A stretch of DNA of 37,396 nt, from IMG/VR virus record IMGVR_UViG_3300042542_002303, positions 1-37,396 of that record. The stretch is one strand, 5' to 3'. This stretch comes from a virus. Positions 1,900 through 23,386 of this stretch are shown here, one piece after another. The translations under genes were made by a program, and so were the position numbers. Each line of letters begins with the position of its first letter. Position 1 is the first letter of the stretch. The notes below the pieces were generated by a model. It saw nothing but the letters and a program-made list of their open reading frames with translations. It searched no databases and was not told the DNA's origin.

Positions 1900-3443
1900 G
1901 ACGTGGCCTCATCCTCTTCCTCGTCCTCTTCTTCGACGACAGTAGTCTCGCGTCGCGCCGTGAACGGAGAGCCCGCCAGTGCGCCGGGCAGACTCACCTG
2001 CGGCGCACGGACGGCCCGCATCTGCTCAAGGTACGCTTCCGCCGCCGCACGGTCGGCACTCAGGCCCAGCATCACGCGAGCGTCGGCCTCGTCGATGAGC
2101 CCGGCCTCCCTCAACGCCAACACCCGATCCTGCTTCTCTTGATCGGCCTCATAGGTCTTGCCGGTCGACAGCGTGACCATCGGCTTGACGTCGCCAAACT
2201 CAGCGGGGCTTGCGGGGTCAAACAAGCGCAGCACGTCGATAACGATGGGCAGGAGTTGGCCCTCTTCGAACGCCTTGAATATGGGCCGGCTTTCCGCAAC
2301 GCGCTGATCATGCGGCGCGTTGGCGATCATGCGTGACACGCCGGACTGCGGCGCACCGGGTTCGACGGCGTAGGCGTCGGGTGAGTTGCCTCGCGACACG
2401 CCGAGCTCCTGCAGGTCACGAGTCGCGCTGGCCTCGATAGCAGCGTGGTCCGCGCCGGCAGTCTGCGCCTGCAGCGTCTCGCCGGACCCGATTTGCAGGA
2501 CGACACCTGGACCGCCGACAAGTTCGCTCGTCTCGCGAGTGAGGCCGCTGTAGACCCACGTTGCATGGGCCTGCATGTCGACGACGTGCTGCCGATTGGA
2601 CCTCGACACGTTCAGCCGGTCGACGTTGGCGACGACGTCACGGTCGGGATCGGGCCAGATACCGCCAGCACCGGGCTCGATACGAAGGAACGCGCCGGGG
2701 AAGCGGCCTTCGTATGCCTCCGACGCCGTCGCTGTCTTGCCGTCCTCGCTCACACGCCGATGCGACCACGCGCCAAACGACACGAGATTGCCCGCATCGT
2801 CCTCGACAAACTCCCGTGACCACACCCACCACAAAGGCGACGCCGACGACGGCGTGGCTTGCTTGATGGCGCACAGCCACAAGGCATCGGGGTCATCGGG
2901 GGCCGACGGATGCGCCAGCGTGACGACGTCGTGCGTCCAGTAGATTTGGCAGACCAGCTTGCCGATGTCGCCGATCTTGCGCCAGCCAAGCATGGCAAAC
3001 GACGCACGAGCGCCAGCGTGACAGCGCCGTTCCATCTCTGGCATGACGACGTCAATACCGGCCTCGTCAAGCCCACGCCGAAAGGCGACAAGGCGCTCGT
3101 CATCCTCGTCCAGCGCCTCGCCCTCGTCGTCGACAAGGGTGCGATCCGCTGGCGTGGCGTAGACGCCGCTGTCCTGTCGAGCGAAGAACCGGAGCCAGTT
3201 GACGGGGTCAATCGGAAGCTGCTGATAGGTGCGAGGGTACGCCTTCTTCAGCGCGTCGCGAATCACGCTGGCCTGGTCGCCGCTGTAGCGCACCGCAAGC
3301 CCCTTGACGACGCTATCGTAGTCGGCGGGTCGGGTCTTCCGGCCAGCGTCGAGTAGCGCCGACAACTGGTCTGGCATCCATGCGCCGGCCTGCTGTCGGA
3401 TTGTCTCGATCACGGCATCGCTTGCGGCGTTGTAGGAAATCAT
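1896..3443 (-). CDS. Portal protein
   Basis: 515 aa, ATG start. It lies directly between TerL and the MuF-like gene, the standard place for the portal. The sequence fits a portal of the SPP1 gp6 or HK97 type: a helical N-terminus, a beta-rich wing (around RFPGAFLRIEPG), and a long central helix region around residues 350-420 (SGVSRMIANAPHDQRVAES). The C-terminal tail is very acidic (VEEEDEEEDEATS). It forms the dodecameric ring through which DNA enters and leaves. The upstream gap of 42 bp contains a TTGACT-like hexamer but no properly spaced -10. Family assignment rests on context plus fold-like pattern, not on a single signature. Confidence 0.85.
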   Translation of the reverse strand: MISYNAASDAVIETIRQQAGAWMPDQLSALLDAGRKTRPADYDSVVKGLAVRYSGDQASVIRDALKKAYPRTYQQLPIDPVNWLRFFARQDSGVYATPADRTLVDDEGEALDEDDERLVAFRRGLDEAGIDVVMPEMERRCHAGARASFAMLGWRKIGDIGKLVCQIYWTHDVVTLAHPSAPDDPDALWLCAIKQATPSSASPLWWVWSREFVEDDAGNLVSFGAWSHRRVSEDGKTATASEAYEGRFPGAFLRIEPGAGGIWPDPDRDVVANVDRLNVSRSNRQHVVDMQAHATWVYSGLTRETSELVGGPGVVLQIGSGETLQAQTAGADHAAIEASATRDLQELGVSRGNSPDAYAVEPGAPQSGVSRMIANAPHDQRVAESRPIFKAFEEGQLLPIVIDVLRLFDPASPAEFGDVKPMVTLSTGKTYEADQEKQDRVLALREAGLIDEADARVMLGLSADRAAAEAYLEQMRAVRAPQVSLPGALAGSPFTARRETTVVEEEDEEEDEATS

Positions 3444-5449: not shown

Positions 5450-5629
5450 TCAGATGCCGTTGCCTTCGCCGATGCTCTCAAGGTAGGCGATGGCTTCCTT
5501 GACGAGGTCATTCGTCGACGACCGGCCACCCTTGGACCAGAGCAGGCTCTGGCAGAGTCCGACCAGCGCGTCGCGCTCGGTCTTGGTCTTGTCGGTCGTC
5601 GTCTTCTTCGAGGGCTTGTTGGTGTTCAT
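5450..5629 (-). CDS. Small basic protein of unknown function (59 aa) in its own transcription unit
   Basis: 59 aa, ATG at 5629. The N-terminal 20 residues are Lys/Thr-rich (KPSKKTTTDKTKTERD). They are followed by two predicted helices with LVGLCQSLLW and DLVKEAIAYLESI. It could be a small DNA- or RNA-binding or regulatory protein, but I recognise no family. It has a private sigma70-type promoter (5664-5636) and a private terminator (5419-5442). The predicted transcript start coincides with the ATG, and there is no clear ribosome site, so the mRNA is probably leaderless. That isolation and promoter quality suggest high early expression of a takeover or regulatory peptide; this is inference. 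Confidence 0.75.
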   Translation of the reverse strand: MNTNKPSKKTTTDKTKTERDALVGLCQSLLWSKGGRSSTNDLVKEAIAYLESIGEGNGI

Positions 5630-5635
5630 GCACCC

Positions 5636-5678
5636 ACTCTACCCAACCGTCACGCATCCGTCAAGCACTTGTGTGCTG
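5636..5678 (-). promoter_or_regulatory. Early promoter of the 59-aa gene
   Basis: On the minus strand -35 TTGACG (5664-5659), a 17-bp spacer and -10 TAGAGT (5641-5636). The predicted start point is about 5629, the first base of the ATG. The 19 bases at 5678-5660 (CAGCACACAAGTGCTTGAC) are identical to the plus-strand promoter at 13577-13595, which marks a shared control element. Confidence 0.75.
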
Positions 5679-5730
5679 TTTCTGTGGGATGGCGTTGCAA
5701 TGCGAGATCTAGTCGTCCTGCCGACAGATC

Positions 5731-5760
5731 AAAAAAAGAACCCCGCCAGCGCAGGCGGGG
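5731..5760 (-). terminator. Terminator after the winged-helix gene
   Basis: On the minus strand CCCCGCC-TGCGCT-GGCGGGG (7-bp stem) is followed by TTCTTTTTTT. It lies 78 bp after the stop of the 5838-6173 gene; the spacer between them shows no gene. Confidence 0.88.
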
Positions 5761-5837
5761 TCCAGTCGCGATCCGGTGGGTGTCCGGCGCTCGCCAGCCC
5801 GCCGAGAGACGGTAGCGGGGTGACGTGGGGGGGGATG

Positions 5838-6173
5838 CTATACCGCTTCAGGTTGCGAAGCAAGGCGGATCACGGTTGCCGGTCTTCCGCGTGTCATGCA
5901 TCCGGTCACTACCGCTTTCCCGTCGGCCTCCAATCTGTCGATGGCCTCTGACAGGGCAGCGGCCCGAAAACGCCGCAAAGCTCGTGTGATTTCTGATCTG
6001 CCCATCGGGCGGGTCTTAAGTAGCGCCACGATGGCCCCCTCCGCTTCCTCAGATGCCGCAGGAACGTTGATCGCCACGCTGACCACCTCACCTATCGCCA
6101 AGTCCTGCGGCGCGGCACAGATGACCACCCTGCGGCCCTGTTGCTCTGTCACGATTCCGGTCGTTGTCGTCAT
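5838..6173 (-). CDS. Winged-helix protein related to the C-terminus of the phage primase
   Basis: 111 aa from the ATG at 6173, chosen for the strong AGGAGG upstream; the frame is open to 6266. The N-terminus is a short beta-rich segment (RRVVICAAPQDLAIGEVVSVAIN). Residues about 48-108 form a winged helix-turn-helix: EGAIVALL, MGRSEITRALRRF, LSEAIDRLEADGKAVV, and a wing with GRP. The same pattern (MGRSDLLRACR, EIVDRLAEEG, GRPREIYAL) ends the primase-helicase encoded just upstream, so the two domains are probably paralogous. Likely a DNA-binding regulator or an origin-binding helper. Candidate AGATCT-centred operators and a TATAAT element lie ahead of it (6235-6304), so autoregulation is possible. 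Confidence 0.8.
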   Translation of the reverse strand: MTTTTGIVTEQQGRRVVICAAPQDLAIGEVVSVAINVPAASEEAEGAIVALLKTRPMGRSEITRALRRFRAAALSEAIDRLEADGKAVVTGCMTRGRPATVIRLASQPEAV

Positions 6174-6234
6174 GCTAACCTCCTGCACATATGGTGCGCG
6201 GAAGTCAGGACGGAAGTCAAGGACCTTCTTCTTA

Positions 6235-6304
6235 TTAGAGATCTCTAAAAGATCTCCTAATGACAAAACTCCTTTATTATAGGGGCTTCCGTTGTTTTAG
6301 ATCT
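6235..6304 (-). promoter_or_regulatory. Promoter with AGATCT-centred palindromes ahead of the winged-helix gene
   Basis: An AT-rich island in a GC-rich genome. It holds a perfect 14-bp palindrome TTAGAGATCTCTAA (6235-6248), a second AGATCT-centred imperfect palindrome 11 bp away (core 6250-6255), and a third AGATCT core at 6299-6304. A perfect minus-strand -10 TATAAT lies at 6281-6276, and the third AGATCT occupies exactly the -35 position (17-bp spacer). This suggests a regulator acting on the promoter of the 6173 gene. Confidence 0.6.
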
Positions 6305-6321
6305 TCTTTCCGCAAAACGCG

Positions 6322-6349
6322 ACGGCCCCGGGTTTTCTCCCGGGGCCGT
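6322..6349 (-). terminator. Terminator hairpin after the primase-helicase gene
   Basis: A perfect 11-bp stem ACGGCCCCGGG / CCCGGGGCCGT with a 6-base loop, 29 bp after the stop of the primase gene. On the minus strand only GCGTTTTGCG follows, so the U-tract is weak, but the stem is very stable. Confidence 0.65.
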
Positions 6350-6377
6350 TGAAGTTCTTTCCGAAATAAGAAGAACC

Positions 6378-8612
6378 CTACTCGGTCTTGAGCGCGTAAA
6401 TCTCGCGTGGGCGTCCGCCCGTAGGCTCCTTTGCTACCACGATTGTCCCCTCTTCGGCAAGCCGGTCGACAATCTCGCCCACCAGACGCGCCGGGAGCGC
6501 CCTACAGGCCCGCAAGAGGTCCGACCTGCCCATGGACCCGCCCGATGCCCGCAAAGCGCCTAGGACAAGCTCACACTGCGCCGCATGGTCGTCCCAGCTC
6601 GCCCGACGATTGGCCGCCAGACTCCCTGCAAACACCCTCGCCGACTCTTCGGCCAAGGCCACCGCCACACGAGCGCAATCCTCCGTCACGACAGGCACGT
6701 CCGCTTCGGGTTGCGCCAGCGCGGCAAGGATCATCGCCAACCGGCCGGCAAACTCCGGCAGGCGCGCCAGAACCGCCGGAGGCACATCCTGCCGAGTGCC
6801 ATCGCGCCGCGCCTTGTCAGCGTCGATCTTGCACCTCGTCAACAGGTCACGCGCCGCGTCTTCTTCCGGCATCGTGACCGAGTCGTACAGCCGAAGTTGA
6901 TCCACGCCAGTGTCGACCGTGACCGCAAGGGCCAGGTGCCATGCCTCATGACGCTCACGCACCGCCAGCACGGCCGACCGGACGTCCAGCGGCAGATCGT
7001 CGTCGGGCCTTGTCTCTGGCGGTTGCCAGTCCGGCAGCACCCACTGTGAGCGCATCCACACATGACGACCGACAAAGCCGTCTGCCACGTCGACCGACGT
7101 CAGGACACTGTGCAGGCTCTCCGGCGTTGTCGATCCAAGCACCGTCACGACAGGCGCAATCAAGTCGAGTTTGCCGCCGCCCTTGACGAGAGACACCGCT
7201 GGGGACCACTTGTCTGTGCCCTTCGTGGACAGCTCCGTCAGAGACTGCTTGATGTCCTGCCGATGTGTCGCGGCCCTTGGACCCATCATGTTCCCGAGCT
7301 GCATCCCATACTCGTCAAGCACAAGACACGTCGCCACGCCAGCGCCGACAGCCTTCCTCACGCCGTCGACAAAAGCAGGCCCCGACGAGAAAGAGTTGGG
7401 ACCGCGCAATGCTGGCCAGCACTCGTCGATGACCCGCGAGAGACAAGACTGCGGACGGTTCTTGCCCTCACCCGACGACGCCATGGACACGACGTAGAGG
7501 CTCGACGTCGACCGGCGATACACGAGCCGACGGCCAGCCATCGCCGACCCGAGGGCCAGAAGCGCCGCAATGGTCAGTCCAGGTTGCGGATGGTCCGCCC
7601 CACGGATCACCCAGCCGCAAAACGTGTCGCACAAACCGCCCAGCGCCCTCACATCGGCGAGCATCGCCCAACGTGCGGCGTCCTGCTCGGCTGGCGTCGG
7701 CCCCTTGGGCTTGGCCCTCTCCGGCGTCATGATGATCTCTGGCTCAATCGCCAGCGCGTTGATCTCGTCGACGTAATAGCCGCTGTCTGACTCCATAATC
7801 GCCTTGTCGGCAGGGCTCCGAGGATGCGACGCGCCAGCCCTGAGGCCACGCTCAATCGTGCCCCTCGACTTGCGTTCGCTTTCTCCCTCCCAGCCACGGG
7901 CCACGCTGTAGAGCGCGTCCGCAGCTACGCCGAACGACAGATGGCCCGCGCCGCAGATCTGGCCCAACTTGAATGCCGCACGAACCAGCGCATGGTTGCG
8001 CCCGCCTTTGCCTGTCCGCGCCACCTCGTCGACTTCCTGCCGCAGCGCCGTCTCTGCCCACGATGTCGCAGTGAGAGCAAAAGTCTGGCGCGTCAGTGTG
8101 ATCGCCTGCTGTCGTGGCTTCACCCTGTCCACGATCCACGACGGCAACGGCACCGGGTCAACGTCGTTCGCCCATGCGTAGCCCTTGCCCTCGACGACAG
8201 ACGGGAACGCCACGATGTATCCGCCCTCGCCTCTTGTGTCGGCATCGGGGCTGATAGCGTTAGGGCTTGACTTGGCTGTGTTGGGCAAGCGCACACCCTC
8301 CGGCAGCGCGTAGACGTAGTGCCATCCGCCGCCGCGTGTCCTTGCTATCCACGTCTCTGGCAGGCGCGGCATGATCTCCGACGACGCCGCGTCAATGTCG
8401 ACGACGTAGATGCCAGACACCGAGCCCGTCGCAATCGCCACGTTCGCACCTGGCGTCTTCTCCCACCACGACCGGATCGTGTCCTCGTCCGTCGTCGCGT
8501 CTTTGCACCCGGCAGACCCCGCAAAGGGAATCTTCGACCCCGGAGAGCAAGGGAACACCGCAAGCCCACGGCTGGCATACCAAAGAGCCGCTTCAATATT
8601 GGTCATCGTCAC
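6378..8612 (-). CDS. Bifunctional primase-polymerase with DUF3987-type helicase domain
   Basis: 744 aa. GTG at 8612 is preferred (GAGG seven bases upstream); ATG two codons later is an alternative. Residues 1-165 are an archaeo-eukaryotic primase (Prim-Pol) domain: KIPFAGS near the start, the catalytic DID at 72-74, a GGGWH with the metal-site histidine at about 98, and GEGGYIVAFPS. Residues about 320-620 form a DUF3987-like P-loop domain with Walker A-like ASSGEGKN (about 378-385) and Walker B CLVLDEYG (about 429-436). The last 70 residues form a winged helix related to the separate 5838-6173 protein. It would prime and unwind at the phage origin. The gene follows the helicase gene by 9 bp. 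Confidence 0.92.
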   Translation of the reverse strand: MTMTNIEAALWYASRGLAVFPCSPGSKIPFAGSAGCKDATTDEDTIRSWWEKTPGANVAIATGSVSGIYVVDIDAASSEIMPRLPETWIARTRGGGWHYVYALPEGVRLPNTAKSSPNAISPDADTRGEGGYIVAFPSVVEGKGYAWANDVDPVPLPSWIVDRVKPRQQAITLTRQTFALTATSWAETALRQEVDEVARTGKGGRNHALVRAAFKLGQICGAGHLSFGVAADALYSVARGWEGESERKSRGTIERGLRAGASHPRSPADKAIMESDSGYYVDEINALAIEPEIIMTPERAKPKGPTPAEQDAARWAMLADVRALGGLCDTFCGWVIRGADHPQPGLTIAALLALGSAMAGRRLVYRRSTSSLYVVSMASSGEGKNRPQSCLSRVIDECWPALRGPNSFSSGPAFVDGVRKAVGAGVATCLVLDEYGMQLGNMMGPRAATHRQDIKQSLTELSTKGTDKWSPAVSLVKGGGKLDLIAPVVTVLGSTTPESLHSVLTSVDVADGFVGRHVWMRSQWVLPDWQPPETRPDDDLPLDVRSAVLAVRERHEAWHLALAVTVDTGVDQLRLYDSVTMPEEDAARDLLTRCKIDADKARRDGTRQDVPPAVLARLPEFAGRLAMILAALAQPEADVPVVTEDCARVAVALAEESARVFAGSLAANRRASWDDHAAQCELVLGALRASGGSMGRSDLLRACRALPARLVGEIVDRLAEEGTIVVAKEPTGGRPREIYALKTE

Positions 8613-13968: not shown

Positions 13969-14179
13969 CCCCGACCGCTACTTGCCCGATCCCGGCATCG
14001 ACGACAGCCCCACCGACGCCGAGCTTGCCAGCGTCGCAGACGGCGTCGACGTGACCCGATGGGTGATGGATCTCGTCGACACTGGCGAGGACAGTGCGGC
14101 CCTGCTCCGGTGGGCGCAGGACTGCTACCGAGAGATCATGGATGCGGTGGAGCGTAACCGAGAGGAGCGTGATGCGTGA
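13961..14179 (+). CDS. Small acidic hypothetical protein (72 aa)
   Basis: 72 aa, ATG at 13961 with GAGGTGA upstream. Acidic and helical (DAELASVADGVDVTRWVMDLVDTGEDSA, then CYREIMDAVERN); no family recognised. Its end overlaps the start of the cytosine methyltransferase gene by 8 bp, which suggests translational coupling. Confidence 0.75.
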   Translation: MIDPDRYLPDPGIDDSPTDAELASVADGVDVTRWVMDLVDTGEDSAALLRWAQDCYREIMDAVERNREERDA

Positions 14180-15086
14180 GCTGGCTCTTTTCGCGGGTGC
14201 TGGTGGAGGCATCCTCGGCGGACATCTCCTTGGGTGGCGCACCGTGTGCGCTGTGGAGTGGGACGCCTACGCAGCCTCCGTCCTGGTTGCCCGCCAAAAC
14301 GACAAAATCTTGCCGCCTTTCCCGATCTGGGATGACGTGCAGACGTTTGACGGACGAGCATGGCGAGGCCGTGTTGACGTCGTGTCTGGCGGTTTTCCCT
14401 GTACCGACATCAGCACCGCAGGACGTGGCGCAGGCATCGACGGAGAAGCGTCCGGCATGTGGCGTCACATGGCGCGAATCATCGGTGAGGTACGACCGCA
14501 ATACGTCTTCGTGGAAAACTCACCGGCTCTTGTTCACCGAGGCCTTGCCCGAGTCCTCGGTGACCTTGCCGCGCTGGGGTATGATGCGCGATGGGGTGTG
14601 CTGGGAGCGGCTGACGCCGGGGCACCACACAGGCGCGACCGAATATGGATCGTTGCTGCCGACGCCGACTGCGTCGGTGATGGGAAGCAACACCACCATG
14701 CGACGTCACGGCCAGACGTTAATGAGTCGAGTGTTAATGTGGCCGACGCCCACGGCTCATTCTTGGAAAGAGAAAGGATATCCGGCGGAATACAATCGGA
14801 TGACTCCGGGGCTTGGATCAGTCGTGCTGAAGCCGCATTTGTGGCCGACGCCACAAGCGAGCGATTGCCGCAACAGAGGCAACGCGGACACACCGGCAAT
14901 CGCCAGACGAATCGAAGCTGGCAAGCAAATCACATTGACCATGACTGTCAGTGGTGGGCAACTGAACCCGACGTGGGTCGAGTGGCTCATGGGGTGGCCA
15001 ATCGGGTGGACCGATTGCGCTGTCTCGGCAACGGACAGGTTCCAGAAGTGGTGCGCCTCGCATGGCGCACGTTGATTAACGACTGA
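14172..15086 (+). CDS. dcm: C5-cytosine DNA methyltransferase
   Basis: 304 aa, ATG at 14172 after GAGGAG. The family motifs are in order: I (LFAGAGGGILGG), IV with the catalytic Cys (GGFPCTDIS), VI (FVENS), VIII (RRDRIWIVA), a variable target-recognition region, and X (LGNGQVPEV). It transfers a methyl group from S-adenosylmethionine to cytosine C5, probably protecting phage DNA from host restriction; no cognate nuclease is nearby. The target-recognition region contains repeated VADA units. The whole gene is also open in the +1 frame (14176-15075), where the translation matches another widespread phage protein type. Confidence 0.93.
   Translation: MRELALFAGAGGGILGGHLLGWRTVCAVEWDAYAASVLVARQNDKILPPFPIWDDVQTFDGRAWRGRVDVVSGGFPCTDISTAGRGAGIDGEASGMWRHMARIIGEVRPQYVFVENSPALVHRGLARVLGDLAALGYDARWGVLGAADAGAPHRRDRIWIVAADADCVGDGKQHHHATSRPDVNESSVNVADAHGSFLERERISGGIQSDDSGAWISRAEAAFVADATSERLPQQRQRGHTGNRQTNRSWQANHIDHDCQWWATEPDVGRVAHGVANRVDRLRCLGNGQVPEVVRLAWRTLIND
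14176..15075 (+). CDS. Overprinted +1-frame ORF inside the cytosine methyltransferase gene
   Basis: 299 codons, GTG start four bases into the dcm frame. The translation begins MSWLFSRVLVEAS and carries SSWKTHRLL, WGMMRDGV, three [LW]PTP[TQ]A repeats, and ends LNPTWVEWLMGWPIGWT then DRFQKWCASHG. From memory this matches a phage protein type that is common in databases and usually annotated as hypothetical or methyltransferase-like. It appears to be the alternative frame of dcm genes. It may be a real second product or a persistent annotation artefact forced by conservation of the dcm frame. Only an expression or substitution-pattern test could decide. Confidence 0.35.
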   Translation: MSWLFSRVLVEASSADISLGGAPCALWSGTPTQPPSWLPAKTTKSCRLSRSGMTCRRLTDEHGEAVLTSCLAVFPVPTSAPQDVAQASTEKRPACGVTWRESSVRYDRNTSSWKTHRLLFTEALPESSVTLPRWGMMRDGVCWERLTPGHHTGATEYGSLLPTPTASVMGSNTTMRRHGQTLMSRVLMWPTPTAHSWKEKGYPAEYNRMTPGLGSVVLKPHLWPTPQASDCRNRGNADTPAIARRIEAGKQITLTMTVSGGQLNPTWVEWLMGWPIGWTDCAVSATDRFQKWCASHGAR

Positions 15087-15524: not shown

Positions 15525-15676
15525 TCGCCCGCATCCTTGCCATCTTTGGCGTCCGTGTCGTCGACCTCGACATGGTGCATGTGCCCATCGACAAGTGGCA
15601 CGAAATCATTGGCGAGCGTGATCGCCTGCGTCTTGAGGTGGAGCGGCTGCGGTCGCTTGTGAGAGGTGGAGTGTGA
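15521..15676 (+). CDS. Small hypothetical protein (51 aa)
   Basis: 51 aa, ATG overlapping the previous stop by 4 bp. A hydrophobic start (IARILAIFGVRVVDL) is followed by a charged amphipathic helix with heptad spacing (IIGERDRLRLEVERLRSLV), likely a short coiled coil. Coupled to the adenine methyltransferase gene by GTGA. No family recognised. Confidence 0.72.
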   Translation: MIARILAIFGVRVVDLDMVHVPIDKWHEIIGERDRLRLEVERLRSLVRGGV

Positions 15677-16194
15677 GCGGCAAGCGCGGCAAACAGGACT
15701 GGGCAACGCCGCCCCACATCGTCGAGGCTGTCGCCGTCGACAGCTTTGGTGGTCGCCCATTCGACCTCGACGTCGCGGCCTACGCCAGCAACGCGAAAGC
15801 GCCCGCCTACTACGACCTCGCAGGCAACGGCATGACGTCGCTGTGGGCTGCGCCGCAAGTGTGGTGCAACCCACCCTACGAGAACCAGGGCGAGTGGATG
15901 GCCCGCGCCGTCTGGCATGCGAGGGAGTACGGCACCTCCGTGGCGTTGCTCGTGCTGGCGTCGACGTCGGCGCTCTATTGGCGACCGTGCGCGTGGGATG
16001 CCGGTACCGTCGACTTTTACGAGGGCCGTATCGCGTTCCTCGACGAGCATGGCAAGCAGCAACCCGGCTTCGACCGCGCTAGTGCGCTGGTGCTTGTCGG
16101 CCCTGCCTTTCGCCCCGGTGTCGTGCGAGTTCGCGACGCCTCGACAGGAAGATTGATTGATGGCGACAAACGATACCAACCCGGTCTGATTTGA
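15673..16194 (+). CDS. dam: Phage N6-adenine DNA methyltransferase
   Basis: 173 aa, GTG start in a GTGA overlap, with GAGGTGG upstream. The pattern fits the phage N-6-adenine-methyltransferase family: QDWATPP near the start, FDLDVAA with the SAM-pocket acid, the catalytic NPPY (VWCNPPYENQ), then LLVLASTSALYW and GRIAFL. The length is typical. It methylates adenine N6. With the C5 enzyme it gives the phage two different base-modification activities in one operon, consistent with restriction avoidance. Confidence 0.9.
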   Translation: MSGKRGKQDWATPPHIVEAVAVDSFGGRPFDLDVAAYASNAKAPAYYDLAGNGMTSLWAAPQVWCNPPYENQGEWMARAVWHAREYGTSVALLVLASTSALYWRPCAWDAGTVDFYEGRIAFLDEHGKQQPGFDRASALVLVGPAFRPGVVRVRDASTGRLIDGDKRYQPGLI

Positions 16195-16619: not shown

Positions 16620-17224
16620 CCCGAGTCCGTGGAACCGACAAACTTGATCCACCGTCGACGTACCAGCGCATTATCGAGCGTGGGCCGTGGGCCAGTTACG
16701 CCCGATGCGAGGAATGCGGCGTCGACGCCGGCCGCGCCTGTCGAGACATGAACGACCGTGAGGCGCTAGAGGTCTGCGATGAGCGCCGGCTCGTCATCAA
16801 CGACAGCGCCGCCCGCTGCCGTGTGCGGAACGTCGACGACGAGAAGCCGGAGAAGTCTCGCCGCGACAAGCCGCCAGCCAGCGACAAGCGCACGAAGAAA
16901 CGACGAGAGGAAGGCAAAGCAGGTCAGCCGGTCTACGTCGCCTGCCACCACTGCGGCGAGCCGACTCGACTATGGGGGCAGGGCCTGATCTCAGGCCGCA
17001 CGTGGTGCGCGGCCACGGAGTGTCGTCGCCACAAGGGCAGGGTGTATCGCGCCGAACGCAAGGGCCAGAAGCAGCAGCCGCAGACGGTGCCTTGCCATTG
17101 GTGCGGGACTGCCCTGCCAGTCACCGGCCGACATGGTGCCGCCAGACCATGTTGCGGTGACGTCGCTTGCTCGTCTGCGATCAAGTACGAGACGGCGAGA
17201 CATCGGGCGGCTGCTACCCCGTGA
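16616..17224 (+). CDS. Multi-zinc-finger protein of unknown function
   Basis: 202 aa, ATGA-coupled. Three cysteine clusters: an N-terminal C-x2-C-x6-C set (CEECGVDAGRAC), a middle set with CHHCG and later CAATEC, and a C-terminal set with CHWCG and CCGDVAC. The linker between the first and second is highly basic (KSRRDKPPASDKRTKKRRE). The N-terminal cluster resembles the small zinc-finger domain common in phages. A nucleic-acid-binding role is likely. Last gene of the rightward operon; its end overlaps the end of the convergent endolysin gene by 11 bp with no terminator between them. Confidence 0.82.
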   Translation: MTRVRGTDKLDPPSTYQRIIERGPWASYARCEECGVDAGRACRDMNDREALEVCDERRLVINDSAARCRVRNVDDEKPEKSRRDKPPASDKRTKKRREEGKAGQPVYVACHHCGEPTRLWGQGLISGRTWCAATECRRHKGRVYRAERKGQKQQPQTVPCHWCGTALPVTGRHGAARPCCGDVACSSAIKYETARHRAAATP

Positions 17225-17810
17225 CGACGAGAGGATACCCTCTGACCACGCGATAGCGCCTCGGTGACGCGCCCCACATGACCTCAGCCTGTAGGGTGCG
17301 CCGGTCGATTTGGATGACCTTCGCCGGTGCGCTGTCGGTCGCGTAAATCACGTCGTCATCGTAGGCGAGGGCCATGATCCAATGCTCGCCTACGTCGTCG
17401 CCGGTGTAATCGACATGCAGCCACGCGAACCCGTGCCTTGGTGAGATGCCGTGACGGTCGATTGCGTCGCAGATTGCGACGCTCAACTGCCGCGCCGACA
17501 TGGCCCCTTTGGCGACCGTCCAGGCTGATTCAGGATCGGGACAAGACAGCCCCGCAGACCGCGCCAGACGTGGCAGGACGGCCAGCGACGAGCCGGGTGC
17601 CCATACGGGCGGGACCGCCAGCGCGGCGCGTTCACAGACCGTCTGAGGCGTTGCGCCAGCGCGGGCACCCGATGCCCGCTGCGCCTCGGCCAGACTGGTC
17701 GCTGTGCATCCCCACTGCGCGACGGTCTTGCCGCCGAGACCGTAGGGCGACGAGCCCCATCGGCGGTCGCCTTGCCACATGACGCGAGACGGGAGTGGCC
17801 AGCCGTGCAT
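17214..17810 (-). CDS. C39-like cysteine peptidase, probable endolysin
   Basis: 198 aa, ATG at 17810 overlapping the previous stop (TAATG). The pattern fits C39-like/papain-like hydrolases: QGDRRWGSSPYG, then WGCTATSLA with the catalytic Cys at 35, His143 in EHWIMAL and Asp159 in YATDS. It has no signal peptide, so release through a holin is expected. It is the last gene of the capsid/lysis unit, downstream of membrane and coiled-coil genes. Cutting of peptidoglycan cross-links is the likely role; a virion-processing protease is an alternative. Confidence 0.75.
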   Translation of the reverse strand: MHGWPLPSRVMWQGDRRWGSSPYGLGGKTVAQWGCTATSLAEAQRASGARAGATPQTVCERAALAVPPVWAPGSSLAVLPRLARSAGLSCPDPESAWTVAKGAMSARQLSVAICDAIDRHGISPRHGFAWLHVDYTGDDVGEHWIMALAYDDDVIYATDSAPAKVIQIDRRTLQAEVMWGASPRRYRVVRGYPLVVTG

Positions 17811-17938
17811 TATCCGCTCACCGCCATGACGACGTCGGGCTCGCCGTAGAATCGAGCCTGCTGCGCGGCCTGCTCAGGGGACATGGCCCACAGGTAGCGG
17901 GTGCGGCCGTCGACGTAGTGGGCAACGTAGCGTCTCAC
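17810..17938 (-). CDS. Small hypothetical protein (42 aa)
   Basis: 42 aa, GTG start in a GTGA overlap with the upstream gene and AGGA before it; the stop overlaps the endolysin ATG. Begins RRYVAHYVDGRTRYLWAMS, then EQAAQQARFYGEP. No membrane segment. Double coupling within the lysis block is the main support. Unknown function. Confidence 0.65.
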   Translation of the reverse strand: MRRYVAHYVDGRTRYLWAMSPEQAAQQARFYGEPDVVMAVSG

Positions 17939-18132
17939 TGGCGTTCCTCGATTCGCTTTGCGGCGTCGTCGACGATGTCTGCCACGGCGTCATTCTTGGG
18001 GTCGTCGTCGCTGCGAAGGCGAGCGGCGTACAAGCGAAGCGCGAAGCCGACGACTTCGCGAACGACGGCATAGATGCCGCCGCCAGCGAGCATGGCATGC
18101 CACTCTGCGGCGACGTAGTTAGCGAGTTCCAC
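17935..18132 (-). CDS. Small lysis-block protein (65 aa), holin candidate
   Basis: 65 aa, GTG start after AAGGGA; overlaps the upstream gene by 14 bp. The first 40 residues are moderately hydrophobic (EWHAMLAGGGIYAVVREVVG, then FALRLYAARL), and the end is charged (DIVDDAAKRIEERQ). It could be a small membrane-associated holin or accessory protein; the hydrophobic run is not long enough for a firm call. Confidence 0.6.
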   Translation of the reverse strand: MELANYVAAEWHAMLAGGGIYAVVREVVGFALRLYAARLRSDDDPKNDAVADIVDDAAKRIEERQ

Positions 18133-18364
18133 TGTGGTTTCCCTTCAGCAAAAGTGCTTCAATGCGGTCGAATCTTTTGTCCATCTCGGCCTGCATCTTC
18201 TCGACGCTGCCGGCCACCATCGCCAGCGCTTCCTTGCTGGCCTTGTCGCTGCGCAGCTCCGATGTGATCTCCTCGAGACGGCGCACACGAGCCTGTAGCG
18301 CCGCCCATGCCGCTGCGCCACCTGTCGCTGCCGAGAGAGCACCGATAGCGATTTGCTCAATCAC
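18119..18364 (-). CDS. Membrane plus coiled-coil protein, holin or inner-spanin candidate
   Basis: 81 aa from GTG 18364 (GAGG upstream, 4-bp overlap with the phospholipase gene). One N-terminal membrane segment (IAIGALSAATGGAAAWAAL) is followed by a long charged coiled coil (RVRRLEEITSELRSDKASK, then VEKMQAEMDKRFDRIEALL). This topology is seen in XhlA-like lysis accessory proteins and in inner-membrane spanins. I see no lipobox-bearing outer spanin partner nearby. Its place between the phospholipase and the endolysin supports a lysis role. Confidence 0.7.
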   Translation of the reverse strand: MIEQIAIGALSAATGGAAAWAALQARVRRLEEITSELRSDKASKEALAMVAGSVEKMQAEMDKRFDRIEALLLKGNHSGTR

Positions 18365-19209
18365 GCCACACCTCGAAACCACGCGCCGCAGAGACGGACG
18401 GTGTCGTAGCCGGTCGACCACTCACGTTCGACGCGCTGCCTGTTTTTCTTGAATGCCCAATCGTTGACGGCGTCCACGTCAACATCCAGCCCGTCAGTGC
18501 GTCTCGACTTGCGTTGCGATGGAGCCCACAGCAGAGCACGGGGAATCGCAGAGAGAATCGCCGGGACGTCACCTGGGCGGATGCGGCCGGCCGGGTCCAT
18601 CGGTGCCTCACCGAGACGCACGGATACGCGAGGCTCCGGCTTGTGGTCCCAGACGCTGTCGACAGTGTTGTCGGTGAACCCGCCATCGCCATACAGACGA
18701 ATGTCGGGAGACAACTCCGTGCCGATTGACGGGATGACCGCCGCAGGGACCACGCCGCACATGAACGACGACGACGCGATGACCGCCTCGCGCACCACAA
18801 TGCGCGGTGTGCTGTGCTTCGACAGGTATACGGGCCTCGCCCTGTCGAGGTCAGTCACGCACACCACAAGCCCGCTGGTTGCGTCTCCGAGTCGTGCGCC
18901 CTTACCGACGTGCGTGTCGACGAGGTCGCCGATGACGTCGAGAGAAAACAGACCACCACGGGGCACACTGGCCGGCGACAGCGCGAGAGTCTGTCCACTC
19001 TCCAGCACGTCGACGAGCATGGCGACGATGACTTCGTCGGGCAGACCAAATGCCTTGCACGTCGCGACGATGGAGCCCGCCGATGCACCGCTCCACCCAA
19101 GCACTTTCGCGTGTGCGTCGACGGCAGCAGCAGCACCGGCGAGGTAGGTGATAGCGGGGCCACCTCCACTGATACTGGCGTACACTGCACGACGTGACAT
19201 GCCGGTCAC
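18361..19209 (-). CDS. Patatin-like phospholipase
   Basis: 282 aa from GTG 19209 (GTGA overlap; an ATG lies three codons in). The patatin fold markers are in order: glycine-rich oxyanion loop SGGGPAITYLAG near residue 15, nucleophile elbow GASAGS (G-x-S-x-G), the REAVIASSSF helix, and the catalytic aspartate in YGDGGFTDN. The Ser-Asp dyad is complete. Patatins hydrolyse acyl chains from phospholipids. No signal peptide or fused domain is visible. It lies in the late operon between a membrane protein and a membrane/coiled-coil protein, just before the endolysin, so membrane attack at lysis is a reasonable inference. Interaction with host membrane defence is an alternative. Confidence 0.87.
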   Translation of the reverse strand: MTGMSRRAVYASISGGGPAITYLAGAAAAVDAHAKVLGWSGASAGSIVATCKAFGLPDEVIVAMLVDVLESGQTLALSPASVPRGGLFSLDVIGDLVDTHVGKGARLGDATSGLVVCVTDLDRARPVYLSKHSTPRIVVREAVIASSSFMCGVVPAAVIPSIGTELSPDIRLYGDGGFTDNTVDSVWDHKPEPRVSVRLGEAPMDPAGRIRPGDVPAILSAIPRALLWAPSQRKSRRTDGLDVDVDAVNDWAFKKNRQRVEREWSTGYDTVRLCGAWFRGVA

Positions 19210-19466
19210 GGTATCACCGCGACGGGGGAACCGGAACCCCCGCCAACGCCGCCACTCGGTTTGCCCGGTGGCTTTCTAGTGCGGCGTTTCTTGCGCTTGT
19301 CGTCCTCCTCTTCGTCAGTCTCAGAATCGTCGACGTCATGTAGTGACGCTTGCTCGCTATTGAGAAGGCGCACGGCAATCACTTTGACGATCCAATCACC
19401 TACAGCCATGCCGAAGCCGACGACGACACACTCGACGAGAAGGATGATCAACTCCAACATGTCCAT
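19206..19466 (-). CDS. Membrane protein with acidic-basic tail, holin candidate
   Basis: 86 aa from ATG 19466 (GGGAGG eight bases upstream). A hydrophobic segment at residues 3-30 (MLELIILLVECVVVGFG onward to VKVIAVRLL) is followed by an acidic patch (DDSETDEEEDD), a basic patch (KRKKRRTRK) and a Gly/Pro/Ser end. The strongly charged C-terminus after a hydrophobic N-terminus is holin-like, though one or two membrane passes cannot be told apart. It directly precedes the phospholipase gene with a 4-bp overlap. Confidence 0.7.
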   Translation of the reverse strand: MDMLELIILLVECVVVGFGMAVGDWIVKVIAVRLLNSEQASLHDVDDSETDEEEDDKRKKRRTRKPPGKPSGGVGGGSGSPVAVIP

Positions 19467-19468
19467 GG

Positions 19469-20242
19469 TCACGCCCTCCCGTCGTAGCATGAGCCATCCC
19501 GCCAGAAACGCTGCTCGGTGTAGACGACGATATCCGCCGTGAATCGGCCAGACTTGCGCTCGATCCAAAACTCTCCGTGTCCTTGCGTCCATCCTGTCGG
19601 CCCCTTGATGTAACTGCATTTGTCAACGGGAGCGAGGCACGGCAGACCGAAGGCACCACGCACATGCTGCGAGCCCTCAGGGCCAGCCACCGGCATCGTG
19701 TAGAGCTGTGCGCGGTGACAGTGCCCGATGACCAGGTTCGTGCCGTATCTCAGCAGATGCGACTTGCAGTAGGCATCGCCGGCAAACACGCCATGCGTGA
19801 ATCCGAGGTGCCCGATCTTGTGCACCTCACCGTATGGCGTCGACGTGATGGCGTGGTCGACGAGACGAAGCGCGGATGCCCACGTCTCCATTCCTGCAAG
19901 TGCCGGCGCTGTCTTCGCGACGAAGCGCCTGTAGCGGTCCTCATGGTTGCCCTCGACGTAGTGGATCGGCTTGCGTCCCATGATCTTGCGCAAGCGCGAC
20001 AACTCATCGCGGACCTGCTCAAGTTCGGCGAGGAACGCCTGTCGCGGCTCTCCGTCGTCATGCAGCGACACCGCCGCAAAGTCGGCAAAGTCGCCGTTGA
20101 TGATGAGCCGGTCAGGCTTGCAGTCCTCGAGACGCTTGAGGAACGCCGCCCACGCAAACGGGTCATGGAAGGGGACATGGACGTCGCTGCACACCATGAC
20201 GTGCTCGACGTCGGCCCGCAGCTTTCCCTTGCGGCGGGTCAC
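19469..20242 (-). CDS. Calcineurin-like metallophosphoesterase
   Basis: 257 aa from GTG 20242 (GTGA overlap with the upstream stop); the frame is open further upstream but that part overlaps another gene. All metal-site motifs are present: D-x-H in CSDVHVPFH, GD in INGDFADF, GNHE in VEGNHEDRY, the His in FTHGVF, and G-H-x-H in IGHCHRAQ. Phage members of this family are common; substrates range from nucleic acids and cyclic nucleotides to ADP-ribose-type compounds. Its place among late genes is unusual for a nuclease of replication and leaves the substrate open. Confidence 0.9.
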   Translation of the reverse strand: MTRRKGKLRADVEHVMVCSDVHVPFHDPFAWAAFLKRLEDCKPDRLIINGDFADFAAVSLHDDGEPRQAFLAELEQVRDELSRLRKIMGRKPIHYVEGNHEDRYRRFVAKTAPALAGMETWASALRLVDHAITSTPYGEVHKIGHLGFTHGVFAGDAYCKSHLLRYGTNLVIGHCHRAQLYTMPVAGPEGSQHVRGAFGLPCLAPVDKCSYIKGPTGWTQGHGEFWIERKSGRFTADIVVYTEQRFWRDGSCYDGRA

Positions 20243-20469
20243 CGCTCCACTTCCGTGGTGTGCGTCGGCTCGACGTCGGGGTAGTGCCAGTGGGGATACT
20301 CGCCGACAGAGCGGTGGTTCATCGTGCGCGTCGCGATGTTCATGCCGCCGAAGTAGTCCGCAGAGATGCGACCACCGCCGAGGTGGCGACGCACGAATCC
20401 GGGGCAAGCGTAGGTGTCGGAGATGACGACGACGACGGCGTCACCGATAACGGGTGTGCGGATCTTCAT
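20239..20469 (-). CDS. Small hypothetical protein (76 aa)
   Basis: 76 aa from ATG 20469, just after AGGAGG and the hairpin at 20482-20508. The N-terminal half is beta-like (KIRTPVIGDAVVVVISDTY); the C-terminal half has several His and Tyr residues (GEYPHWHYPDVEPTHTTE). No family recognised. Overlaps the phosphoesterase gene by 4 bp. Confidence 0.7.
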   Translation of the reverse strand: MKIRTPVIGDAVVVVISDTYACPGFVRRHLGGGRISADYFGGMNIATRTMNHRSVGEYPHWHYPDVEPTHTTEVER

Positions 20470-20481
20470 GGGCCTCCTAGA

Positions 20482-20508
20482 CAACAGGCCCCACAAGGGG
20501 GCCTGTTG
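20482..20508 (-). terminator. Hairpin between structural and lysis-side genes
   Basis: A perfect 11-bp stem CAACAGGCCCC / GGGGCCTGTTG with a 5-base loop, 22 bp after the stop of the 20531 gene. No U-tract follows (TCTAGGAGG comes next, carrying the next ribosome site), so it may be an mRNA-stabilising or processing hairpin or a weak terminator that tunes late expression. Confidence 0.55.
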
Positions 20509-20530
20509 CGTGTCACGTTGTCGTCGACGT

Positions 20531-21034
20531 TCAGCCGATCTTGCGGACAATCAGGCTGAAGTCACGGATGGTCAGGGCGTGACCGTTGGTGCCGACGCGC
20601 ACACGGGCCTCGACGGTGTCGCCGACAGCGGTCGGGGCAAACACGGCGTAGGCAGCGGGCATACCCATGCGCGAGGCAGTGGCCAGCTCGGTCTTGCGCG
20701 AACCAACGCCGATCTGCGCCTTGGCCGCGCCACCGATGCTGGCCCAGATCTCGACGTCGACAACGGCGCTGTTGGTCGCGATGCCGTCGCCGACGATGGC
20801 GAAGACCTCATAGTCGCCGATGCCGGCGGGCTGGGCGACAGTGACGACGCCAGTCGAACCGACGAACGAAAGAGCGCCGCCAGCGTTGTTCTTGGCGACG
20901 GTGTAGAGCGTCGACGAGAGGATGGCCTGCGGCGTAGCAGCGGCGGCGACGGTGATTGTCTCACCAGTGCCGTTCTTGATCTGCGCCACAAGGGCGAGGG
21001 GAGTGCCACCGGTATTCAGTGCTGCGAGGGACAT
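20531..21034 (-). CDS. Virion protein, probable capsid decoration or head fibre
   Basis: 167 aa, ATG at 21034 with AGGAG upstream. Beta-rich, low in charge, dominated by Ala, Val, Thr, Gly, with repeated short strands (GETITVAAAATPQAI, GGALSFVGSTGVVTVAQ, GDYEVFAIVGDGIATN). It looks like a jelly-roll or immunoglobulin-like outer capsid protein. It is the last structural gene of the capsid module before the lysis block. Family not recognised; the role is inferred from composition and place. Confidence 0.65.
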   Translation of the reverse strand: MSLAALNTGGTPLALVAQIKNGTGETITVAAAATPQAILSSTLYTVAKNNAGGALSFVGSTGVVTVAQPAGIGDYEVFAIVGDGIATNSAVVDVEIWASIGGAAKAQIGVGSRKTELATASRMGMPAAYAVFAPTAVGDTVEARVRVGTNGHALTIRDFSLIVRKIG

Positions 21035-21042
21035 GTGTGCTC

Positions 21043-21189
21043 CTACTTGCCGCGCTCGCGGCTCTGACGGTTGATGCGCTCGGCACCTTCACGCGCAATT
21101 TTACGCGCTTGTTCCGAGGTGAGGGAAGGGCTGGACTGCTTGATCTTTTCCGCGACCTTGTCGACGGTGGAGGTCTTGATGTCAGACAC
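21043..21189 (-). CDS. Small basic hypothetical protein (48 aa)
   Basis: 48 aa from GTG 21189, overlapping the upstream gene by 8 bp. Helical and basic (DKVAEKIKQSSPSL, EQARKIAREGAERINRQS, RERGK). It lies between two capsid-module genes. Unknown function; possibly a small virion or DNA-binding protein. Confidence 0.65.
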   Translation of the reverse strand: MSDIKTSTVDKVAEKIKQSSPSLTSEQARKIAREGAERINRQSRERGK

Positions 21190-21643
21190 GAGCCACCGCC
21201 TTTGACGACGTCGACGACGCGACGGACTTCACCATCGCTTGAATGCTCTTCGCGACTTCGCCGCCCATCTGCTGTTCCATCTGGACTTCAGCCTGTCGAC
21301 GAGCCTCGATGCTCTTGGCGATGAAGCCATCGCGGGCCTTGGCCCATTTGGCGAGCATATGCTCAGGGTGCTCACGCTGAATCACGTCGGCCTCGAAGGC
21401 GAGGGCGTCGTCGGAAGATGGCACAGACTCACCAGGACGAAGCGTCCACTCGCCAACGTGCTCCACAAGGAACACGGGAAGCTGCGTCTCCTTGCCGTCG
21501 ACGACGACGGGGACGCGCTTCGACATGACGCGAGCAAGCGCCTGTCGCTGAGACGTGGGTTCGCCCTCTTTGGTGACGCCACCGTCGGCAAACTCGACGA
21601 TGTGGGGGTCTTTGATGCAGCGGAGTTTGATCGTTCGTTTCAC
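21182..21643 (-). CDS. Capsid-module protein of unknown function (153 aa)
   Basis: 153 aa, GTG start at 21643, first gene after the terminator behind the major capsid gene. Residues 1-80 are beta-rich (KRTIKLRCIKDPHIVEF, RVPVVVDGKETQLPVFLVEHVGEWTL). The remainder is a long helix with an acidic-then-neutral pattern (EARRQAEVQMEQQMGGEVAK). No family recognised. Because it follows the terminator, it is probably made in lower amounts than the capsid protein. Confidence 0.7.
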   Translation of the reverse strand: MKRTIKLRCIKDPHIVEFADGGVTKEGEPTSQRQALARVMSKRVPVVVDGKETQLPVFLVEHVGEWTLRPGESVPSSDDALAFEADVIQREHPEHMLAKWAKARDGFIAKSIEARRQAEVQMEQQMGGEVAKSIQAMVKSVASSTSSKAVARV

Positions 21644-21666
21644 GCGACGCGCCTCTAGTGAGGGAT

Positions 21667-21700
21667 AAGAAAAGCCGGGGGCTCACGACGAGCCCCCGGC
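21667..21700 (-). terminator. Terminator after the major capsid gene
   Basis: On the minus strand GCCGGGGGCT / AGCCCCCGGC (10-bp stem, 7-base loop) is followed by TTTTCTTATC. It starts 10 bp after the capsid stop codon. Partial termination here would raise scaffold/capsid output over downstream genes. Confidence 0.88.
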
Positions 21701-21709
21701 AAGCAGACC

Positions 21710-22702
21710 TCAGTCGAGGTCGTAGATGATCTTGCAGCCGTGCTCGTCGGTGTGCTCGGCGACCGACCAGCACCAACGACCAACGGCGAGCAGGGTGTCG
21801 TCGGAGAGATCGTACTGGAAGCCCAGCGACGGCTCGTAGCGTTCGACCATCTCAGCGAAGCCACGCACGGAGCCGGGGGTGCCCGTCTCGCCACGGCCAG
21901 CGACGATGAGCGCGGCGACACGGTCGACGCCAGCGTTCGCGGTCTGCATGACGTTCTTGTTCGCGCTGTAGATCGGGATACCAGCGAACGAACCACGGAA
22001 GCCGTTGCGCGAGGCATCGGGCCGGTGGTTGAAGAACGACACATCGCCGCTTCCGCCGCCGCCAAAGATGGCCGACAGCGACGCGCCAGTGCCCGACGCA
22101 GCGAGGGTGCGCAGGTCGGCGAGGCCCTGCTCTTCAAGCACGAAGACGAGGTCTTCCGACGACGGGTTGTTATCCATGACCTTGAGCAGCGCATCCAACA
22201 GCGTGACGAAGCTGAGCGGCTGGTTGCTCGTGCCGGCGCTCTCCGACAGACCCGAGAAGAGGGCGAGGGCGTCAGTCTCAGCGCGGAGATAGTGGGCCTC
22301 AAGGATCTCGGTGATGGCATCACGCACGAGCGGCAGGGCACCGGGGTTGTTCCCCTCGATGGCAGCAATCACCTGGCTGCGCGGAACACCGGGGAGCGCG
22401 AGTTCGACGGCGTCGGCGGTGAGCTGGATGCCCTGAACCTTGGTCGTCGGGGTGATCGAAATGTTCGCCTGCACACCAAGCGCGGCCGGGTTGGAGAACG
22501 CGATGCCCTCGCTGTCGTCGACAGCGGCGGCAATCGCGGACTTCTTGCGGATCTTGCGCACCTTGGAGGCGCGGCCGCTGATGTCGGCCATGTTGAGGAA
22601 GGGGAGCAAGACGTACTTGCCGCGAAGCGGGTCAAGCGCAAGCTGCGACATGACCTCGGTGAGAATCCAATTTGCGACGGTCGTGCTGCTAGAGACGGGC
22701 AT
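21710..22702 (-). CDS. Major capsid protein (HK97 fold likely)
   Basis: 330 aa, ATG at 22702 with AGGTGA upstream. It follows a scaffold-like gene and is followed by a strong terminator, as expected for the most abundant virion protein. The pattern fits HK97-fold capsids of the scaffold-using type: an N-terminal arm, DPLRGKYVLLPFLNMADISG, a helical spine (VRDAITEILEAHYLRAETDALALF), a glycine-rich loop (SAIFGGGGSGDVSFF), then GIPIYSANKNV and a C-terminal beta domain (VERYEPSLGFQYDLSDDT). No protease gene is present, so maturation may proceed without cleavage or with an unrecognised enzyme. Confidence 0.85.
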   Translation of the reverse strand: MPVSSSTTVANWILTEVMSQLALDPLRGKYVLLPFLNMADISGRASKVRKIRKKSAIAAAVDDSEGIAFSNPAALGVQANISITPTTKVQGIQLTADAVELALPGVPRSQVIAAIEGNNPGALPLVRDAITEILEAHYLRAETDALALFSGLSESAGTSNQPLSFVTLLDALLKVMDNNPSSEDLVFVLEEQGLADLRTLAASGTGASLSAIFGGGGSGDVSFFNHRPDASRNGFRGSFAGIPIYSANKNVMQTANAGVDRVAALIVAGRGETGTPGSVRGFAEMVERYEPSLGFQYDLSDDTLLAVGRWCWSVAEHTDEHGCKIIYDLD

Positions 22703-22729
22703 GGGTCACCTATTTGCGGCGTCAGCCGC

Positions 22730-23386
22730 TCAAGCGTTTTGCGCCTTGGTCGTCGGCGAGAATCGCCCAACGCCAAGGGAGGGCGAACCGCCGTTGCGGT
22801 TCGCCAGAACTCGATTGAAGAACGCAGCCACCGCGCCGGGGTCGCGCTTCTTTATCTCGGCCAACTTCGCGCCGCTCTTGTCCGCAAGCGCGGCCTCGAT
22901 ATCGACGGCGGACACCGGAGCCGGCGCACCCATCGGCGGGGGCTGGCCCTTGACGGGTGCCGCGCTCGACGTGGCGCGGAAAGCAGCAAGTACCTTGCGG
23001 CGGGCCTCGATATCGGAGGCAGTCGCGTAGAGGTCACGCACCGCTTCCGGCAATGCGGCAGCTTCAGCGTCGAGACGCTTGGCTTCCTCGGCCTCATAGC
23101 TGCGCCACTTGGCAGCCAGCGGCTCAAGCCCCTCCAACTCGGCGAGACGGGCCTTGGCGGCTTCCAGCGCCTTCGTTGTCTCGCCAGCCGCCTCGGCCTC
23201 CGCCTGAAGGCGCTTGCGCTCCTCGCGGGCGGCTGCTTTGGCCGAAGCCTGTTCCGCTTTCAGGGCCGCGAGTTCAGCGGCAGCGGCCTTGAGCGCGTCG
23301 AGGTCCACGACGTCAGGTGAAGGGGCAGCAGAGCCCGCTACAGGCTCCGTGGAGGGGGTTTGCGCGGCATCGCCGGAGGTGGTCAT
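22730..23386 (-). CDS. Capsid scaffolding protein
   Basis: 218 aa, ATG at 23386 without a clear Shine-Dalgarno. Classic scaffold composition: a disordered Pro/Ser/Ala N-terminus, a long charged coiled coil (residues about 30-135, for example KAAAREERKRLQAEAEAA and LAAKWRSYEAEEAKRLDAEA), a Pro-rich hinge (KGQPPPMGAPAPV), then a basic helical C-terminus that would bind the capsid protein. Directly upstream of the capsid gene. First gene of the capsid/lysis module, behind two copies of the late palindrome. Confidence 0.85.
   Translation of the reverse strand: MTTSGDAAQTPSTEPVAGSAAPSPDVVDLDALKAAAAELAALKAEQASAKAAAREERKRLQAEAEAAGETTKALEAAKARLAELEGLEPLAAKWRSYEAEEAKRLDAEAAALPEAVRDLYATASDIEARRKVLAAFRATSSAAPVKGQPPPMGAPAPVSAVDIEAALADKSGAKLAEIKKRDPGAVAAFFNRVLANRNGGSPSLGVGRFSPTTKAQNA

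Follow-up and report, generated by a model that had tools for sequence, protein, structure and literature searches.

A lytic cassette built around a patatin has already been proposed for the Wolbachia phage WO (Kent 2011, PMC3173496; Bordenstein 2022, PMC9203015), so the first-pass annotation of the DNA described here overstated its case in not counting phage lysis among the roles known for patatins. In phage WO the patatin lies beside a holin-like protein of fewer than 150 aa with transmembrane (TM) and coiled-coil features, and homologues of the latter adjoin a GH108 lysozyme (PMC9203015). The literature also offers the LysB mycolylarabinogalactan esterases of mycobacteriophages, lipid-ester hydrolases that are encoded in a lysis cassette and deal with the outer layer of the envelope, as well as the spanins (Rz/Rz1, T1 gp11) and the disruptins, which serve the outer-membrane step of lysis.

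The patatin-like gene described here (PAT) lies in an IMG/VR virus contig of 37,396 bases, the whole of which was analysed and is referred to below as the window. A near-identical record of 37,426 bases is cut within the metallophosphoesterase gene, the halves of which lie at its two ends, which makes a circularly permuted and roughly complete phage genome probable. Read in descending coordinates, the late operon ends with capsid, two small genes, g20239, metallophosphoesterase, an 86-aa TM protein, PAT, a TM and coiled-coil gene (CC), genes of 65 and 42 aa and a cysteine peptidase, after which come the plus-strand early genes. The membrane, coiled-coil and cysteine-peptidase neighbours that had been reported for PAT at this position are all present, and the features are as follows:

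21710..22702, minus strand: putative major capsid protein, so named from its position and a scaffold-like neighbour (no family match); 74-99% identity in related phages, used as lineage marker
19469..20407, minus strand: metallophosphoesterase ORF (phrog_221, E 1.4e-33), a conserved late gene; the true start is probably internal
19206..19466, minus strand: 86-aa single-TM protein upstream of PAT, lineage-specific; ATG at 19466 preceded by GGGAGG; its stop and the PAT start share 4 nt
18361..19209, minus strand: PAT, patatin-like phospholipase gene, 282 aa; GTG start, possible ATG at codon 4
Landmarks within PAT: glycine loop at residues 15-17; Ser43 in the nucleophile elbow; Asp175-Gly-Gly; family-specific C-terminal part after about residue 185
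18119..18364, minus strand: CC, 81 aa, N-terminal TM segment and coiled coil, holin-like or inner-spanin-like; GTG start overlapping the PAT stop (GTGA)
17935..18132, minus strand: small probable membrane protein, 65 aa, homologue of an 87-aa gene in patatin-less relatives; holin candidate
17810..17938, minus strand: 42-aa gene with overlaps of 4 and 1 nt to its neighbours; L145 and L148 have a counterpart (42 aa), L144 possibly one of 60 aa
17214..17810, minus strand: cysteine peptidase of C39/papain-like type, Q13, C35, H143 and D159 invariant; best endolysin candidate

The idea of a lysis patatin is therefore not new, and, as in the putative WO (Wovirus) cassette, PAT lies beside a small TM and coiled-coil protein of less than 150 aa (81-113 aa for the CC proteins of the PAT lineages). 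This cassette nevertheless differs from that of WO. The WO cassette is defined by an ankyrin-repeat protein and the lack of a canonical endolysin, whereas here a candidate peptidase endolysin is kept and no ankyrin gene was found among the neighbours scanned. Furthermore, tblastn of PAT against INPHARED, which includes the WO record KX522565, gave no match, so PAT and the WO patatin are at most distant members of one superfamily. By analogy, the PAT cassette would work like the one proposed for WO without being a member of it. The likeness to LysB would lie in the presence of a lipid-ester hydrolase in a lysis cassette, but PAT comes from a different family, LysB not being a patatin, and would have a different substrate. 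With the spanins and disruptins PAT would share the outer-membrane step, but it would do so as a soluble enzyme, as inspection and hydropathy revealed no apparent signal peptide or TM anchor and there is no lipobox.

The complete patatin-like ORF that had been annotated at 18361-19209 proved to be a real frame, on the minus strand; the plus strand there is interrupted by stops. In a Pfam profile search the product matched PF01734 (Patatin) significantly, at E 8.7e-12 and 46.1 bits against a curated cut-off of 27.7 bits, with residues 12-182 aligned to positions 2-185 of the 191 in the profile. A profile search of the whole record returned the same match, and the homologues in two other lineages, L145 and L148, matched at E 5e-13 and 1e-14 (50.0 and 55.6 bits). 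No match to PAT was obtained in PHROGs or by phmmer against the PDB; the best PDB sequence match, VipD, was not significant (E 0.16). Across nine comparisons with the window, omega (dN/dS) for PAT was 0.05-0.11, synonymous changes far exceeding replacements, which shows that PAT is not a chance frame. It is under purifying selection at a level like that of the peptidase gene (omega 0.05-0.14; capsid protein 0.09-0.14).

Neither the nucleophile elbow GWSGASAG (G41-A-S43-A-G45) nor D175-G-G varies among the aligned viral homologues, the most distant of which is 61% identical, so that PAT shares with VipD, ExoU, CapV/CapE and PlpD, all of PF01734, a profile score above the cut-off, a GxSxG elbow and DGG. 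It differs from them in its glycine loop and in having its own C-terminal part after about residue 185. The usual oxyanion loop of patatins is GGGx[KR]G, whereas that of PAT reads S-GGG-PAI; the GGG is invariant but [K/R]-G is absent from every aligned member, and the loop is gapped in alignment against VipD. Thus, PAT is a patatin on the basis of its profile score and dyad motifs, with an atypical glycine loop. The GASAG elbow, DGG and a glycine loop had been correctly described, but the likeness to active patatins was overstated, as the loop (GGGPAI) is without the basic residue and glycine; catalytic competence is likely, not certain, and the activity may be altered. Two AlphaFold models were of low confidence, with pLDDT 31 from near-identical rows and pLDDT 38 from an alignment of 61-96% identity, both too poor for judging the geometry of the dyad. 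Using the latter model, Foldseek placed patatins at the top of both libraries with no match below E 0.001, which gives the assignment weak support.

These low-confidence fold matches include the CBASS patatins CapV and CapE, as might be expected if PAT were an anti-defence, superinfection-exclusion or decoy protein related to CBASS effectors. However, PAT had no PADLOC match (DNA methyltransferases were the only matches among PAT and the neighbours scanned, with no adjacent CD-NTase), no cyclase was present among the window genes scanned, and PAT sits late, with the lysis genes, not in the early region. These scans gave no sign of a CBASS-type effector, and we regard a role of this kind as very improbable. 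In the early region, the window encodes on the plus strand a C5-cytosine DNA methylase (14094-15086; PF00145, E 2.4e-32), with a 57% homologue in just one compared relative, and an orphan methyltransferase-like protein (15673-16194; PADLOC E 9e-11).

A single-sequence search with PAT identified nine near-identical contigs (95-97%), a scan for the GWSGASAG motif added two homologues (69-70%), and profile-guided scanning raised the total to 15 contigs, the lowest identity being 61%. A third iteration over IMG/VR added nothing, the set having converged. No homologues were found in PLSDB or in two GTDB pattern scans, and all close members found are in viral contigs. Six further contigs fall into five sequence groups of 61-70% identity (L143, L144, L145/L146, L147 and L148). 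The capsid protein of L146 is 94% identical to that of the window and its PAT just 64%, which indicates different histories for the cassette and the structural genes. A second ester hydrolase occurs near PAT in L089, where the fibre-like protein just upstream (5473-7206) has a GDSL lipase/acylhydrolase domain (PF13472, E 1.2e-17), and likewise in L119 and L147.

Synteny agreed with the earlier placement of PAT inside the lysis block, as its homologues occupy the same slot in every lineage found. In all five groups PAT immediately precedes the TM and coiled-coil gene; the gene of a probable membrane protein of 79-81 aa and the C39-like peptidase come next, and PAT and CC overlap by 4 nt (11 nt in L145). 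Ahead of the peptidase, a gene of 42-60 aa can be clearly recognized in the window, L144, L145 and L148 but was not resolved for L143 or L147. What lies upstream of PAT differs by lineage (the 86-aa TM protein, proteins of 116 or 204 aa, or g20531), and so the constant partners of PAT are the downstream genes. The CC proteins are of two types with no detectable sequence similarity, one in the window, L145 and L148 and the other in L143, L144 and L147; the peptidases also form two types, one in the window, L143 and L147 and the other in L144, L145 and L148. All four combinations were found around a constant PAT, indicating that parts of the cassette were exchanged while PAT stayed at its head. 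The 86-aa TM protein was considered as a fixed partner and rejected, having no match near PAT in other lineages and being truncated in L004 (contig 3300027805_000100). There, at about 3145-3400, a deletion, either real or an assembly error, has joined the first part of the metallophosphoesterase gene to the end of the 86-aa gene with loss of the TM segment, while PAT and the remaining cassette are intact.

This arrangement bears on two other readings of PAT. One is that it is a phospholipase of the virion or of entry, carried in the particle along with head or tail proteins, which the phage would use to get across the membrane when it infects; in L148, g20531 of the capsid block immediately precedes PAT, and in L089 and L147 genes resembling those of tail fibres are nearby. 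As its constant partner is a downstream cassette gene and not a structural gene, and PAT has no structural-protein family match, we consider this highly unlikely. The other, and the main rival to a lysis role, is a late metabolic or membrane-remodelling function, in which PAT would be a cytosolic lipase that liberates fatty acids or modifies the host membrane in the course of infection and merely sits next to the lysis genes, with no part in lysis itself. The lack of an apparent signal peptide and the dispensability of PAT in relatives (see below) are in keeping with this, and phage or viral patatins elsewhere have been catalogued as auxiliary metabolic genes (PMC9723777, PMC9469726). On the other hand, in every lineage PAT keeps its slot and its overlap with CC even though parts of the cassette are swapped, and a position in the late operon speaks against metabolic supply during replication, so that this explanation seems to us rather unlikely.

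The neighbours of PAT gave weak indications of possible lysis functions. The start of CC was fixed by conservation with patatin-less relatives and its TM segment was predicted from hydropathy; in PHROGs, CC of a patatin-less relative weakly matched an Rz-like spanin (E 0.003) and the alternative CC type a holin (E 1.3e-4). The 65-aa protein, for which hydropathy reached a borderline maximum of 1.48, showed 41-54% identity over short stretches to the 87-aa gene product of patatin-less relatives by tblastn. In the peptidase the Q, C, H and D residues are invariant across 14 aligned homologues, a single homologue matched Peptidase_C39_2 at a sub-threshold E 0.017, and no rival endolysin was found by Pfam among the late proteins scanned. 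A PDB profile search was also tried as a means of identifying the peptidase as an endolysin and was set aside, as it returned a single unconvincing match.

Eight near-full-length relatives (35.7-37.8 kb) had no match to PF01734 anywhere. Their metallophosphoesterases are 70-77% identical to that of the window (a range of 66-77% was also obtained for patatin-less relatives) and their capsid proteins, where compared, 74-85% identical. The patatin-less relatives keep CC, in some cases with a detectable homologue of the 65-aa gene, and then a more distant peptidase (24-31% identical to that of the window), which shows that phages of this group can lyse without PAT. A capsid tree groups the PAT carriers on one side (support 71/86), and a single gain or loss would thus account for the distribution. 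On a tree, peptidase type also tracks PAT (support 100/99), but the one-sided position of the carriers in the capsid tree means that a functional link gains no independent support from this. The genomes differ in layout as well: the window clade has the capsid block, with the metallophosphoesterase and 86-aa TM genes, at the end of the late operon (17214-23386 in the window), and in the patatin-minus relatives compared (L018, L066-L081) the capsid genes come before the tail genes. The closest full-length relative, L076/L077 (G004), differs from the window in its helicase (33% identity), which is encoded on the opposite strand, and lacks any match to the primase/polymerase of the window; the replication module has been exchanged between these near-identical phages.

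Strict and broadened lipobox scans of the window's late operon around the cassette, the latter widened in line with the AWAC report, revealed no outer-spanin gene, as the first-pass annotation had noted. It had gone on to suggest that the lipase might carry out the outer-membrane step of lysis; on this reading PAT would replace the spanin as an enzymatic outer-membrane disruptor and so supply the third lysis component in a Gram-negative phage that has no spanin. In favour of this, no spanin could be identified in 91 of 677 phages in a survey, and a LysB esterase already performs the outer step in phages of mycolata (PMC6139136), while the means by which spanin-less phages pass the outer membrane has been stated as an open question (PMC12819732). 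However, four patatin-less relatives scanned genome-wide, and the cassettes of others, also contained no convincing spanin lipoprotein, so these phages manage with the same cassette and neither component; PAT and spanin do not trade off, and compensation by PAT for a missing spanin is an unsupported step. In addition, the CC proteins could themselves be inner-spanin-like, and the proposal presupposes a Gram-negative host; the nearest terminase and helicase matches listed are from phages of Gram-negative bacteria, at about 30-39% identity only. Specific replacement of the spanin is thus unlikely. A wider proposal would make PAT one of a dedicated class of patatins by which tailed phages without spanins enzymatically destroy the outer (or inner) membrane, WO being a second, independent case; this we consider doubtful.

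The explanation we favour, though we would give it only an even chance, is that PAT is an accessory late phospholipase of the lysis cassette which attacks the host membrane at lysis. The retention of PAT at the head of probable lysis genes in several lineages suggests that it contributes to the burst by membrane digestion. PAT would be made late, its translation coupled to that of the adjacent TM and coiled-coil lysis gene, and, having no apparent signal peptide, would be held in the cytosol until the holin step. The burst itself would be begun by the holin and the cysteine-peptidase endolysin; PAT could then reach the inner membrane and, if the host is Gram-negative, the inner face of the outer membrane, where hydrolysis of envelope phospholipids to lysophospholipids and fatty acids may finish or speed the burst. 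Such an endolysin-like route is the simplest model and agrees with both the PAT-CC coupling and the constant presence of PAT in the cassette. For colicin release, a phospholipase precedent reportedly comes from Dekker in 1999 (cited in PMC4353708), with an outer-membrane phospholipase A that is activated by bacteriocin release protein. Against a lysis role stand the close patatin-less relatives that retain the remaining cassette and the lack of a strong endolysin or holin family match in it, the C39 match being sub-threshold; the end of the late operon is also a site where phages park accessory genes. Thus, what holds of the lysis reading put forward earlier is that a patatin heads a compact late cassette that has lysis-module features, but not that it substitutes for a spanin.

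As WO is a phage of an intracellular symbiont, the proposal that a patatin acts in lysis is hard to test there. The cassette described here is small, self-contained and coupled by overlaps, and includes a peptidase endolysin gene, so that the idea would be testable in an ordinary lambda-based lysis assay, with the natural patatin-minus relatives as matched controls for a role of PAT in lysis.
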